DNA of 48,827 nt. It comes from Flavobacteriales bacterium. GTDB lineage: Bacteria > Bacteroidota > Bacteroidia > Flavobacteriales_D > Sanyastnellaceae. Under the pieces are notes generated by a model that was given only the letters and a program-made list of their open reading frames with translations, was not told the DNA's origin and did not search any database. Positions 35,195-48,807 of the stretch are shown here, in pieces (the first letter of the stretch is position 1; each line of letters opens with the position of its first letter). The stretch lies in assembly GCA_947488195.1 (NCBI GenBank), contig CANKYR010000005.1, forward strand, positions 1 through 48,827. The letters run 5' to 3'. Both the position numbers and the translations under genes were made by a program.

Positions 35195-38100
35195 ATGAAG
35201 AAATTTTTGAAATGGCCCGCTCTCGCGTTAGTGATTTTACTCCTCGCATTTCGTCCAATCCTAAAATCTTGCGAAGCATCTTTCGCAGAATCTCGCGCAG
35301 CGTCTTTCGAAGAATCTTGTAATACATCTTACGTAGAATCTTGCGTAGCATCTTGTGAAACATCTTTCGCAGAATCCTGGTCCGACAGCCTCATCAAGAC
35401 CCTTACTCTCGATCAGAAAATTGGACAACTCTTCATGGTTGCGGCATGGAGCGACGAAAAGAAAGAATCGTACAATCCAACGCAAATCGATGCCCTTATC
35501 AAAAATAATGGCATTGGTGGAATTATCTTCTTTCAAGGTGGACCCGTGCGTCAAGCGAAGTTGACGAATAGATTTCAAGCTAAATCAAAAATTCCTTTGC
35601 TCATTGGAATCGATGCAGAGTGGGGGTTAGGCATGCGTTTAGACAGCACCATCTCCTTCCCGCGTGCAATGACTTTGGGCGCTTCCATGGATGAAAAACT
35701 CATTTATGAATTTGGAAAGGAAGTTGCTCGTCAATGCAAGCGCATTGGCGTTCACATGAACTTTGCGCCGGTTGTCGACGTGAATTCAAATCCGAAAAAT
35801 CCTGTTATTTCGAATCGCTCATTCGGTGAAAATGCCGATCGTGTTACCGCCTGCGGAATGGCTTACATGAAGGGAATGCAGGACAATGGAGTGCTTGCCA
35901 ACGCAAAACATTTTCCTGGACACGGAGATACCGATGTCGATTCGCACAAAGATCTTCCTGTTGTAAACAAGAATTATGCACAGCTGTCTTCCAATGAATT
36001 CAAACCCTACAGAGCCTTGTTTGAAAATGGATTGGCAAGCGTAATGGTCGCGCATCTTTCGCTTCCCGAATTCGAAAAAGAAGCACATGTACCAAGTACA
36101 CTTTCAAAAAACATAATAACCGGATTGCTTCGCGATAGTTTGAAGTTCGAAGGATTGGTTCTCACCGATGCCATGAACATGGAAGGCGTTGCGAAATATT
36201 TCCCAGCGGGAGAGGCCGATGTACGGGCGCTTATCGCAGGAAACGATGTGGTGTTGTTCCCGTTGAATGTTCCGTTAGCCATTCAAAAAGTGAAAGAGGC
36301 CATTCAACAAGGACGAATCACTGAAGCTGAAATTACAGCGAAAGCACTAAAAGTGTTGAAGGCAAAAGAACGTGTTGGAGCGAATAAGTTCAAGACTATT
36401 CCAATTAAAGGAATTTCGAAAGATTTGAATTTGCCTTACGCCACAGCATTGCGCCGACGCTGCATTGAAAGTTCGATCACAGTAATTTCGGAAAGTAAAA
36501 TTCCTTACGAGGATTCGTATAAATGGCAAAAACCACTCGGTGTTGTAATTATTGGGGACGATGCTAATTGTGCATTCGCAAAGAGTATGGATCAATACAA
36601 GGCCGTTGAAATTCACGCTCTTTCAAAAGAATGTACAGAGCTAGATATTCACCATGTAATTTCAAAATTGAAAGAGAATTGCTCCGATGTGATTGTCGCG
36701 TTTTTAGGCACAACGAATAAGGCCAATACGAACTTCGGTATTACAACTCACGGAACGCATGCCGCTCATAAAATTGCAGAGCATTTCGCAACAACCGTTG
36801 TTATGTTCGCTTGTCCATATGCGCTTGAAAAATCAGAGTGGAAAGGGATTAACGATTTCGTTGTCGCATATCAGCCCGATGATTTGACGCAGCAAGTAAC
36901 CGCAGATGCCATTTGTGGTATCATTCCTTTTCAAGGTAAATTACCGGTTTCGGTTGGAAGCAGATTCAAAGAAGGACAAGGGAAAACCTTCCAGACAGCA
37001 GGAAGAATGCGATACCTTAAGCCTTCGCAAACGGGTTGGTTCAATTTTGTTTCGAATGGTTCGCAAACAAATGGCAATAACAGTGTTTATGTTGAAGACA
37101 TGATGGCGAATGCACCCACTGAAGTGGAGGGCACTGAACTGAACCTATTTTCCAAAGTAGATGTTATCGTTAAGGAAGGAATGGATCAGGGCGCATACCC
37201 TGGTTGCCGTGTTTTAATCGCGAAAGACGGCGTTATTCTTTACAACAAGAGTTTTGGACACCTAGACAAGGCGAAGACACAGAAAGTGGCTGAGAACTCA
37301 ATTTACGACCTTGCTTCTGTTACGAAAATGCTTTCAACAACAATGGCATTGATGAAGTTGGTAGATGAAGGGAAGATTGATGTCGAAAAAACAATTGGTG
37401 AATACATCGATTTCCCCGAAGGACATCCACATGCGAAAATGCAATTGAAGCGAATGCTGTCTCACACTGCCGGACTTCCAGCATGGAAAGATTTCACCAA
37501 TCTAACAGTGAATGGTGGAGAGTGGGATGGGAATTGTTTATCGAAGGAACACACCGATAAATGCAGCAATCCGGTTTGTGCAGATATGTGGACCACTAAG
37601 GAAATGTCGGATTCGATTTACAAGGAAATTTTAGAAGTGAAATTGACTCCCGATCAAGGCTACCTGTACAGTGATTTAGGATATTACTACTACAAAAAAT
37701 TGATTGAGAAAATTACGGGGATGCCCCTTGATTTCTATGTTTCTGAAACATTCTACAAGCCGATGGGACTGCGTTCTATGGGGTACAATCCAACAAAGAA
37801 TTGGCCAGTGAAAATGATTGCAGAAACTGAGACGGATTCGAAATGGAGACGTCAGGCGGTTCGCGGATATGTGCACGACCAAGGCGCTGCTTTAATGGGT
37901 GGGGTTGGCGGACACGCAGGTCTGTTTGGTAATGCGAACGATTGCGCAGCATTGATGCAATTGTGTTTGAACGATGGTCGATATGGAGCCAACGAATTCT
38001 TTCACCACGAAACAATGGATTTGTTTACCGCACGTCATTTCAAAGACAACAGAAGAGGCCTCGGTTTCGATAAACCAGGATTTACAAATTGGAGTGGTGC

Positions 38101-44364: not shown

Positions 44365-45465
44365 ATGAAATCGCAACGAATCGTCTTATTTTTTTTGGCT
44401 TGCGTTGCTTTTTTTTATTCTTGTTCGAATGGAAACCCTTCGGGCGAAGTGTCTATTCTTTTTCAACCCAAATACGCCAAAGGTTTTCGCGTAGTGAAAA
44501 GTGGAAACGACACCCTCATTCAGTTCCTGTCTCATTCTGATTCTCATTCTGTTTCTCATTCCGTTTCTCTTTCTCAAATCAATCCCGAAAGAATCGCCCT
44601 ACTCAGCACCACGCATACCTATTTCATAGATGCCTTAGATGGAATGAAAAACGTATGCGGAGTGTCCTACGCAGACCGCATTCAGCTTGGGAAATTACAA
44701 GAGCAAATTTCAAAAGGAACAACGCAGAATCTAACTAAAAACGGCGATGTGAATCTAGAAGATTTACTCATGTTGAATCCAACCGTGCTCTTCAGCGTTC
44801 CCTTCGAACCCACGCAGTATCAAACGAAATTGCCGAACTGTTATGTTATCCCAACCTCTGAATACCTGGAAGAGCATCCGTTGGGAAAGACGGAATGGAT
44901 TTATGTTTTTGGGTATGTCCTTCGGAAGAATGTATTGGCGAGAGAGTTGTTTTTGGAAATTGAAAACGCATACCTTGATGCGATGCAAGATTCTTCGAAA
45001 GATGTTTCACAAGATTCTACGAAAGATTCTACGAAAGATGTTTCACAAGGAAGTAGGAGGAAAGTTTTTTTTGCGACGAATAACGGAAGCGACTGGACCG
45101 TGGCGAATAACCAATCGTATTGGGCAATTTTGTTGAAAGATGCGGGGGCGGAATATGTGGGAGCAGAGGAAGGTGTTGGCAATTTGAATTTCGATAAAGA
45201 ACGCATGTTGTTCGCGTTGAATGATGCCGATGCGTATGGCGAGTTGGTGTATTTTCCGAATACATCCAACGTTTCACTCTCACAGCTGCATCCTGAATTC
45301 ATGCAGAGCGGTCCTTTTCAACATAAAAAAATATTTCTCTGCAACGCCGCAGACAACGGCTTCTTCGACAAAGCAATGCTAGAACCGCACATATTACTTC
45401 AAGAATTGAAAAAAGTGTTGAGCGATTCAACCTTTTCAGGAAACTATTTTCAACGAACACAATAG
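44365..45465 (+). CDS. BtuF/FepB-like ABC substrate-binding lipoprotein
   Basis: FFLACVAFFYSCSNG lipobox; PERIALLSTTHTYFIDALDGMKNVCGVSYADRI, NLEDLLMLNPTVLF. Confidence 0.8.
   Translation: MKSQRIVLFFLACVAFFYSCSNGNPSGEVSILFQPKYAKGFRVVKSGNDTLIQFLSHSDSHSVSHSVSLSQINPERIALLSTTHTYFIDALDGMKNVCGVSYADRIQLGKLQEQISKGTTQNLTKNGDVNLEDLLMLNPTVLFSVPFEPTQYQTKLPNCYVIPTSEYLEEHPLGKTEWIYVFGYVLRKNVLARELFLEIENAYLDAMQDSSKDVSQDSTKDSTKDVSQGSRRKVFFATNNGSDWTVANNQSYWAILLKDAGAEYVGAEEGVGNLNFDKERMLFALNDADAYGELVYFPNTSNVSLSQLHPEFMQSGPFQHKKIFLCNAADNGFFDKAMLEPHILLQELKKVLSDSTFSGNYFQRTQ
44530..44574 (+). repeat. 6-bp tandem array (TCT/TCC + NNN)
   Basis: TCT-CAT-TCT-GAT-TCT-CAT-TCT-GTT-TCT-CAT-TCC-GTT-TCT-CTT-TCT, encodes SHSDSHSVSHSVSLS. 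Confidence 0.9.
44979..45050 (-). repeat. Micro-hairpin tandem array B: 6 x 12 bp, same family as array A in opposite orientation
   Basis: Plus strand: TGC-GAT-GCA-AGA-TTC-TTC-GAA-AGA-TGT-TTC-ACA-AGA-TTC-TAC-GAA-AGA-TTC-TAC-GAA-AGA-TGT-TTC-ACA-AGG. Confidence 0.95.
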
Positions 45466-47131: not shown

Positions 47132-48807
47132 AAAGAAAGTTAGATTATTTTTTTTCGGGTGAAGGGAAGTGGCTTCGCCGCGTCTTGCTTGCAGCAGCTG
47201 CTGTGCGCTTAATTGCTGCTGCTTTTTCGGAAGGGTATCTCATGAGCGACGATCATTTCTTGGCCGTTGAACCGGTTTCTTCATGGGTGCACGGAGAGAA
47301 TTACCACAACTGGTTTCCCAATGAATACAACCACACCGATCACGCCCAGCCCTTCAGTTATGCGTATTATTTTTTGAATTTCGTAATCCTGAAGTTCTGT
47401 GCTGTAATTGGAATTCTGAATCCGTTTATCCAGGCCTTTGTTCTTCGCTTGGCGCATGCCGCCTTGAGTTTATGGGGAGTTTACTTATTTGTAAAACTCG
47501 CTGAACGTCTCATTTCATCGGTCACCTGGCGCATGTATGCCATTTGGTTCTGGGTATTCGGAGGAGTAGTCACTGTTTTCAGCGTTCATCAATTGGTTGA
47601 AACCGCCTGCATACCTTTTGTGTTGTTGGCCTATTTGTATGTCTTGAAGTATTTCGAGCGTGAGCGAATGAGCGCACTAGTCATTGCTGCTATCGCATTT
47701 TCTTTTTCGGTTGGAATGCGTTACCAATTGGTCTTCTTCCCCCTCACGTTGGGAATGTATTTGTTGTGGAAACGCAAGTGGAGTGGGGCGTTGCTCTTCG
47801 GAATCTTCTTCACCCTTGGCTTCGCTCTCACCCAAATCGACAACCTGTTGTTCTGGCACAAACCCATTTATCAGCATTTACTCGACTATCAATCCTACAA
47901 CACCTCGCACTTCGCCGATTACCCGAGTAATGTTTTTTCATACCTGGCTTTAATCACGTATTACATCTTTCCAGTTGTAACAATTGTTTTCCTAATCTCC
48001 CTTCGCCGCAGGCCCTCGCACGAAGTGCCCTCGTCTGAAAGACCCTCGTCCAACGGACCCTCGCATCTTGTGCCCTCGTCCGCAGGACCTTCGTCTATTA
48101 GACCTTCGCACGCAGTGCAAATATTCATCGGTGTAGCAATCTTCATTGTGTTTCACCTAATCTTTCCGAACAGACAAGAAAGGTTCTTACTTCCCGCAGT
48201 CCCATTCGTGTTGTTATTGATGATAAGAACAATTTCCAAGCGCTATTCGTACTCCGCACCCTCGCACGAAGTGCCCTCGTCTGAAAGACCCTCGTCCTTT
48301 GGACCCTCGCATCTTGTGCCCTCGTCTGAAAGACCCTCGTCCACCGGACCTTCGCACATCGTGCACCAGGCCATGCGCTGGTCAATCTACCTCTCCATCA
48401 TCTACACCGTTAGTTATTCCTTTTACATCCCAAAATCAAAATACCTCGAAGCTTCAAAAGCACTATACGAACGCGGCGATTTTCAAAATGTGGTTATCGA
48501 CAATTGGAAAGGAGAGGAGTCGGTTTGGTTGCCGATGCATTATGTTGGGAAATTCGTGCATCCGCTTTCCATGACTTCGTCGAAGACCATTGATCAACTG
48601 AAACAGCAGATCACCCATCAACCTTATTACGATTCGAAACGCCTTCCAGCTCCTGCACCCAACTACCTCATAATCTGGGGTAGGGAAGAGGCATATCCTC
48701 GCGCTAAACAACACGAAGAATGCGGCTTCCAACTCCAGCGTCTTTCTCCTGCTCAAAGCGAAAAAGAAAACGGTTTTGCATTGTATTCTCTCGATTTTTT
48801 GCCTTAG
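47128..48807 (+). CDS. GT22 (Alg9/PIG-B)-like polytopic glycosyltransferase
   Basis: Polytopic; early SDDHF motif; FPNRQERFLLPAVPFVLLL (HxERF-like). Confidence 0.7.
   Translation: MKRKLDYFFSGEGKWLRRVLLAAAAVRLIAAAFSEGYLMSDDHFLAVEPVSSWVHGENYHNWFPNEYNHTDHAQPFSYAYYFLNFVILKFCAVIGILNPFIQAFVLRLAHAALSLWGVYLFVKLAERLISSVTWRMYAIWFWVFGGVVTVFSVHQLVETACIPFVLLAYLYVLKYFERERMSALVIAAIAFSFSVGMRYQLVFFPLTLGMYLLWKRKWSGALLFGIFFTLGFALTQIDNLLFWHKPIYQHLLDYQSYNTSHFADYPSNVFSYLALITYYIFPVVTIVFLISLRRRPSHEVPSSERPSSNGPSHLVPSSAGPSSIRPSHAVQIFIGVAIFIVFHLIFPNRQERFLLPAVPFVLLLMIRTISKRYSYSAPSHEVPSSERPSSFGPSHLVPSSERPSSTGPSHIVHQAMRWSIYLSIIYTVSYSFYIPKSKYLEASKALYERGDFQNVVIDNWKGEESVWLPMHYVGKFVHPLSMTSSKTIDQLKQQITHQPYYDSKRLPAPAPNYLIIWGREEAYPRAKQHEECGFQLQRLSPAQSEKENGFALYSLDFLP
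48013..48117 (+). repeat. Micro-hairpin tandem array C: 7 x 15 bp (CCCTCG + 9-nt micropalindrome)
   Basis: CCCTCG followed by CAC-GAA-GTG / TCT-GAA-AGA / TCC-AAC-GGA / CAT-CTT-GTG / TCC-GCA-GGA / TCT-ATT-AGA / CAC-GCA-GTG (last two spacers CCTTCG). Confidence 0.95.
48259..48363 (+). repeat. Micro-hairpin tandem array D: 7 x 15 bp, sister of array C
   Basis: CCCTCG followed by CAC-GAA-GTG / TCT-GAA-AGA / TCC-TTT-GGA / CAT-CTT-GTG / TCT-GAA-AGA / TCC-ACC-GGA / CAC-ATC-GTG (last spacer CCTTCG). Confidence 0.95.

Follow-up and report, generated by a model that had tools for sequence, protein, structure and literature searches.

The window, i.e., the whole 48,827-nt stretch of DNA that was analysed, contains a gene for a secreted GH3 family protein with a tandem array of mini-hairpin units, named Array A, in its coding sequence (Table 1). 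In the encoded protein the PF00933 match (GH3 N-terminal domain) covers residues 71-389 and the PF00144 match (beta-lactamase) residues 658-1008, and a GH3_C match is weak. The 9-mers of the nine units are, in order, TGC-GAA-GCA, TTC-GCA-GAA, CGC-GCA-GCG, TTC-GAA-GAA, TGT-AAT-ACA, TAC-GTA-GAA, TGC-GTA-GCA, TGT-GAA-ACA, and TTC-GCA-GAA. Three Watson-Crick stem pairs are formed in eight of the nine, the exception being TAC-GTA-GAA with an A.A mismatch. The initial annotation had listed GNA loops in eight units, and the list of nine loops was matched exactly on re-reading; the C-GNA-G turn it assigned to most units is present in seven, and the GCGAAGC core in the first unit was located at 35271-35277. 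Its count of five Cys residues in the array peptide should be four. The array encodes residues 25-60 and thus lies, as had been claimed, between the signal peptide and the GH3 domain, which starts at residue 71. Perfect 9-mers of this kind occupy 1.86% of window positions, and the chance of finding eight in nine units in one phase is approximately 1e-13; in a scan of the 12 phases the phase given here scores 8 and the remaining ones 0-2. The RNA folding z score of Array A is -1.75.

Three more arrays lie downstream in two other genes. The second TCT-family array runs in the opposite strand direction relative to its host gene and therefore encodes a different peptide, DSSKDVSQDSTKDSTKDVSQ. The hairpins at 48013-48117 are CAC-GAA-GTG, TCT-GAA-AGA, TCC-AAC-GGA, CAT-CTT-GTG, TCC-GCA-GGA, TCT-ATT-AGA, and CAC-GCA-GTG. 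The spacers of the TCT and CCCTCG arrays in the window are unrelated, and their hairpin grammar is alike. In the gene of the second TCT array, a further repeat of period 12/6 (TCTCATTCTGTT) is found at 44530-44576; read on the minus strand it gives TGA-GAA-TCA-like units and is possibly a decayed hairpin array. Genes were called with our own codon-usage caller and gene starts are therefore approximate.

Table 1. Mini-hairpin arrays of the window, their host genes, and an example of a unit as an oligonucleotide
Feature	Start	End	Strand	Description
Array A	35267	35374	+	Nine units of 12 bp, each with a TCT spacer and a 9-mer mini-hairpin; the coding strand carries the GNA loops
Host gene of Array A	35195	38305	+	Secreted GH3 N-terminal domain + beta-lactamase domain protein, 1036 aa
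Second TCT-family array	44979	45050	-	Six units; the GNA loops are on the host's non-coding strand
Host gene of second TCT array	44365	45465	+	Periplasmic-binding-protein family (Peripla_BP_2), PF01497, E=3.9e-9
15-bp array	48013	48117	+	Spacer CCCTCG/CCTTCG + 9-mer mini-hairpins; 6/7 perfect
Second 15-bp CCCTCG array	48259	48363	+	Seven units, 6/7 perfect hairpins; same ORF as the 48013-48117 array
Host ORF of both CCCTCG arrays	47128	48807	+	PMT_2 mannosyltransferase similarity, weak, under the Pfam cut-off
Example unit oligonucleotide				T-TGCGAAGCA-T

Array families and unit structure

Approximately 40 arrays with 4-19 units each were found in 1.64 Mb sampled from a 2.19-Mb genome (G000); the sample from a second species (G005) was 0.4 Mb. 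Perfect mini-hairpins in runs of at least four are found at periods 12 and 14, other periods being scarce except 24 (two times 12), and mirror-repeat controls yielded 0-1 runs per period. Based on the spacer, the arrays fall into the families TCT/AGA (12 bp), AAC-GNA-GTT with a CCAAC-like sequence (14 bp), and CCCTCG (15 bp), and into further families with 3-6 bp stems, 3-4 nt loops, and the constant spacers GAGG, TTGA, GTCATC or AAAGAT. No GC-skew strand bias was seen.

When units were picked by the TCT/AGA spacer at period 12, with pairing left out of the selection, 100 of 143 contained hairpins, against roughly 0-9% for other frequent trinucleotides used as period-12 spacer. Stem compensation is strong: among 80 distinct TCT units, also selected without use of pairing, 42 are perfect, compared with a mean of 8.4 and a maximum of 16 in 1000 shuffles of the 3' arms. 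The excess of GNA loops that the initial annotation expected in other arrays is present, since across 50 genus arrays (338 units, 78% perfect and approximately 20% imperfect) GNA loops account for 72% of the perfect units, and the excess extends to intergenic mini-hairpins genome-wide (see below). TNC, the inverted form of GNA, makes up 16/74 of the non-GNA loops (4/60 expected), which agrees with loop inversion by template switching and is not independent evidence for it. On strand choice, G.T and A.C mismatches were counted 9 and 7 times, respectively. Many stems are AT-rich and predicted to be marginal (0 to -1.9 kcal/mol). Whole-array DNA folding showed no energy gain over shuffled sequences (z -0.4 and +0.1), in part because the DNA parameters ignore GNA loops: the set has no GNA bonus and scores d(GCGAAGC) itself at zero.

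The C-GNA-G rule in intergenic DNA

In DNA minihairpins, the stability of GNA triloops is tied to a C-G closing pair. Extraordinarily stable minihairpins of the d(GCGAAGC) type are attributed to Hirao et al. 1994 in PMC11292364. Intergenic DNA was analysed with called arrays and 100 bp on either side masked, and the outer two pairs were compared with the expectation from arm composition for each loop and closing pair (250 classes, in which complements are counted twice). C-GNA-G mini-hairpins are the only over-represented class in G000, with an observed/expected ratio (O/E) of 3.0. The C-G-closed loops GCA, GAA, GTA, and GGA (3.33, 3.04, 2.74, and 2.07, respectively) are the top four independent classes, the median being 1.06. 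With G-C, A-T or T-A as the closing pair, GNA loops taken together reach about 1.1, the ANG and GNG loop controls about 0.9-1.1, and C-G-closed tetraloops are not enriched (GNRA 1.24, GAAA 1.13). The excess does not stem from one amplified copy, since it is seen in 14 of the 16 outer stem pairs and survives the drawing of one site per region (47 vs 23); it is stronger for many GC-rich stems (CC 10.5, GT 7.2, GC 5.7). The intergenic DNA of G005 agrees (40 vs 16.6). No excess was detected in coding DNA outside arrays (O/E 1.10), in intergenic DNA of E. coli K-12 (7 vs 11.3, i.e., 0.6) or in intergenic DNA of viral contigs (23 vs 25.4), and a Bacteroidota outgroup gave 2 vs 1.8 in a very small sample.

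GNA is found nearly equally on the sense and antisense strands, with counts of 172/171 upstream and 144/159 downstream. The intergenic excess matches the stability rule of DNA minihairpins and not the RNA tetraloop rule, and the folding strand is DNA rather than RNA because the C-G closing-pair rule holds, GNRA is unenriched, and the orientations relative to genes are close to 1:1. The initial annotation had suggested that single-stranded DNA or RNA able to fold is selected or generated; this suggestion is supported and narrowed to DNA, with generation doing at least as well as selection (see Discussion).

Position, turnover, and range of the arrays

Both orientations are seen among the arrays, which lie either between genes or, as insertions that keep the frame, within them; the coding arrays taken alone show both orientations too. 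The 14-bp arrays are intergenic and often begin at stop codons between convergent genes; the 12- and 15-bp arrays, whose length preserves the frame, are found within genes too. Eight of the nine TCT coding arrays share a single reading frame, D-x-x-Q/K, antisense to TCT, Array A being the exception. In aspartokinase the array makes up residues 187-213 and is placed between residues 196 and 198 of a solved homologue (3c1m chain A); it is a clean insertion that keeps the frame of a conserved domain. Further array-bearing genes encode a family-2 glycosyltransferase (GT2), FdhD, and shikimate dehydrogenase. The description of the array site as a permissive linker holds for Array A and fails as a general rule, other arrays being located inside conserved enzyme domains.

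Several observations concern the surroundings of the arrays in G000. At several places a recurrent core similar to GAAGCTTCGCTAA...TTGCCGAAGGCATCTT is bracketed by two TCT arrays in divergent orientation, which gives the impression of a larger composite element (C36 5787-5973, C37 15720-15960, C49 13290-13480, C103 6050-6193, and C20 28540-28751). Arrays upstream of genes adjoin TATCTTTGC-like sequences (C6 17916-17931, C36 5973-5991, and C37 15924-15945), which resemble the Bacteroidota -7 promoter box (TAnnTTTG), and promoters may be the source of ATCTT spacers or be disturbed by them. At two sites where convergent genes meet (C18 9750-9970 and C3 21860-22110), the AAC-TNC-GTT family is found at the end of one gene and the TTGA family at the end of the other, which looks like an assignment of families to strands. 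A gene with long imperfect repeats lies beside a TCT array at C7 10419-11978, with a counterpart in G005 (C1, about 333700-334700); this gene is strongly divergent between the two genomes.

GH3 orthologs in four other species of the genus, with proteins 90-94% identical (the species compared are approximately 10% apart at the DNA level), carry arrays at the same place that differ in unit number and sequence. The palindromes persist while unit number, codons, and peptide change, which is the reverse of a conserved peptide with non-palindromic codons, the outcome that the initial annotation had named as evidence against itself. Among the compensated stems of these orthologs are CGC/GCG and AGC/GCT, and a unit with a 5-bp stem is present in one species. 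No array was found in the GH3 orthologs of G007 (58% identical) and of more distant relatives.

In this freshwater genus, the 14-bp pattern is present in eight of the nine sequenced species (genomes 71-99% complete). It had no match in 111 further genomes from the family and order, and a reversed-pattern control had zero matches within the genus. The TCT pattern has 10-88 matches in each of the same eight genomes and 0-3 elsewhere. G007 is the sole one of the nine with neither main family; it may be a deep branch, given that its GH3 ortholog is only 58% identical, and may thus provide a natural control. A C-GNA-G pattern of period 12 searched in 299 genomes of the order gave few matches outside the genus, judged by eye to be low-complexity or coding repeats. 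A generic covariance-model search had matches in six genus genomes and none elsewhere, but its first-look filter was lossy (it missed Array A), so that absence outside the genus in this search is weak evidence. In a scan of IMG/VR for a phage reservoir, matches stayed at background, with 5% paired.

Discussion

Array A is part of a genus-specific DNA mini-hairpin repeat system, to which belong the arrays themselves, compensation in their stems, the C-GNA-G rule, indifference to orientation, and turnover between species. We propose, with a probability of roughly 0.55, that the arrays arise by slippage and template switching, coupled to replication, at DNA that folds on itself, and that protein tolerance filters the products. 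Each unit consists of a short family-specific spacer and a hairpin of 3-5 bp, in which a C-GNA-G turn is typical. When the GNA-bearing strand becomes single-stranded, most simply in replication, the turns would fold; the folded turns would promote whole-unit slippage as well as short bouts of self-templated synthesis (template switching), in which one arm is copied into the other. Together, slippage and arm copying would add, remove, and re-perfect hairpins. New hairpins would persist mostly where they are harmless: between genes at any period, and within genes if the period is a multiple of three and the frame is open and hydrophilic. Proteins would thus act as a filter (frame, no stops, hydrophilic peptide), and a function in RNA or protein would be unnecessary. 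The arrival of an array in a new gene might occur by templated insertion of hairpin-bearing single strands, which is a guess.

The proposed steps have precedents. Template switching can create and maintain perfect stems (PMC8794818), and it inverts loops and equalises arms (PMC8604942); polymerase theta can start stem-loop synthesis from two base pairs (PMC11292364). The template-switch origin in the present case is inferred from comparison between species rather than from observed mutation events. Generation fits the array data at least as well as selection, because the folding energy of whole arrays is not better than that of shuffles, although the DNA parameters lack the GNA bonus. The marginal predicted stability of many stems and the lack of a GC-skew bias speak against the proposal. 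Slippage leaves unaccounted for the spread of one spacer family to many unrelated genes, and the lack of a C-GNA-G excess in coding DNA needs either purifying selection or a restricted substrate. Loss of MutS as the cause was not supported, MutS being intact. SbcD (TIGR00619) was not found in the nine genus genomes, nor in most relatives, including array-free ones; its absence may be at most permissive, and much of the family may lack this hairpin nuclease.

Selection is the foremost alternative, i.e., that a protein (a replication, nucleoid, repair or uptake factor) recognises folded mini-hairpin arrays with constant single-stranded spacers. A constant spacer with variable paired stems is the expected trace of recognition of structure plus linker, the C-GNA-G rule and the stronger excess of GC-rich stems suit stable folding, and the recurrent core flanked by divergent array pairs also speaks for it. 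Set against these points, a number of spacers without any relation to each other do equally well, units shift in number and position from species to species, G007 lacks both main families, and about one fifth of the units are imperfect. We regard such a protein as unlikely, but it stays a serious rival because slippage does not account for dispersal, the enzyme candidates are unsupported, and the result of whole-array folding was null. A bolder proposal, which we hold only tentatively, is that a lineage-specific enzyme or replication mode writes family spacers and self-templated C-GNA-G hairpins de novo, seeding new genes; if true, an array would be the written product of DNA foldback synthesis and not a copied repeat.

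Dispersal could also be achieved if the arrays were non-autonomous mobile elements, moved by an enzyme whose substrate is single-stranded hairpins, in the way that RAYT/IS200-605 enzymes handle REP sequences. Dispersal does require some transfer step, one family is found in many unrelated genes (with the clean insertion in aspartokinase), and intergenic arrays often form inverted pairs. However, the Y1 transposase (PF01797) was not found in the array-rich genomes G000, G002, G003 (96% complete), and G008, and it is present in array-free relatives and in some other genus members; the arrays can thus dispense with it. No reverse transcriptase gene (PF00078, RVT_1) was detected in the nine genus genomes (71-99% complete), and an origin as reverse-transcriptase products (retrons, DGR, group II introns) is not supported. 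The arrays have no fixed unit, tag or target-site signature, and their spacers vary by family. Mobility of this kind is, in our estimate, rather improbable.

A role of the hairpins in RNA, at transcript ends or in stability or regulation, is far less probable: the frequent start of 14-bp arrays at stop codons between convergent genes and the RNA folding score of Array A would suit it, but GNA is balanced between sense and antisense strands, GNRA and GAAA tetraloops are unenriched, and coding arrays lie in both orientations. That the peptide (a Ser/Cys/Glu linker) is the purpose of the repeats and the palindromes are incidental is hardly credible and already contradicted, for although Array A is in frame ahead of the GH3 domain and other coding arrays are mostly hydrophilic D-x-x-Q/K repeats, either strand of one DNA family can be the coding one, the family is found in intergenic DNA too, and ortholog peptides diverge while palindromes persist.

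Comparison with known repeats

Rickettsia palindromic elements (RPE; Ogata and co-workers, as described in PMC3767692) are, like the arrays, palindromic and located in frame in conserved genes of one bacterial group, with several families and copies between genes too; RPE are single elements of 100-150 bp, whereas the arrays here are tandem mini-hairpins of 12-15 bp with a constant spacer. Stems, loops, and unit number also vary here, unlike in RPE. The in-frame insertion into pre-existing conserved ORFs by which RPE are recognised is found in aspartokinase; the GT2, FdhD, and shikimate dehydrogenase genes bear arrays as well.

REP/BIME sequences share with the arrays small hairpins, inverted pairs, a frequent position between convergent genes, and many species-specific families (PMC3733652). 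REP are 20-40 bp long with a GTAG or CGTC tag, and the GTAG types accompany RAYT transposases (PMC3733652), whereas the present hairpins are untagged 9-mers with 3-5 bp stems and no consistent Y1 transposase. Membership in the RAYT-mobilised REP was rejected, as neither the tagged 20-40 bp palindrome nor the Y1 transposase accompanies the arrays.

Mitochondrial palindromic repeats (Allomyces double-hairpin elements, Lobosphaera, Fusarium) are likewise proliferating short palindromes; they differ between close relatives and are thought to be mobile or recombination-prone (PMC7218506). These repeats are organellar, whereas the arrays are bacterial. They are not known to follow a C-GNA-G rule or to form tandem arrays with constant spacers in conserved bacterial genes.

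The d(GCGAAGC)-type minihairpins (Hirao et al. 1994, as cited in PMC11292364) obey the same structural rule, a GNA triloop closed by C-G, which by sequence applies to seven of the nine Array A units; they are known as a chemical and structural phenomenon, whereas here the rule is a genome-wide compositional signature. Quasipalindrome correction and template-switch mutation (PMC8794818, PMC8604942) predict compensatory double changes, arm equalisation, and loop inversion; the studied cases have longer arms and are isolated, whereas here 3-bp stems are repeated in hundreds of units. CRISPR arrays have long identical repeats of 21-48 bp, unique spacers of similar length, and cas genes; judged by repeat layout and position, the present arrays differ from them in the period of 12-15 bp, the constant part of 3-6 bp, and the location inside housekeeping genes. 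Among open-licence papers, no account was found of a bacterial genome with GNA mini-hairpin arrays that have constant spacers.

Conclusions

The shaping of genomes by folding of single-stranded DNA is usually argued from long palindromes. In this genus, the intergenic DNA displays a precise chemical rule, namely a GNA loop with a C-G closing pair; the second species agrees and the controls do not. The arrays offer a natural system for testing if compensatory changes, normally taken as proof of a selected RNA structure, can arise by DNA template switching. Conserved enzymes of these bacteria repeatedly gain in-frame insertions encoded by hairpins, which are a possible source of new linkers.
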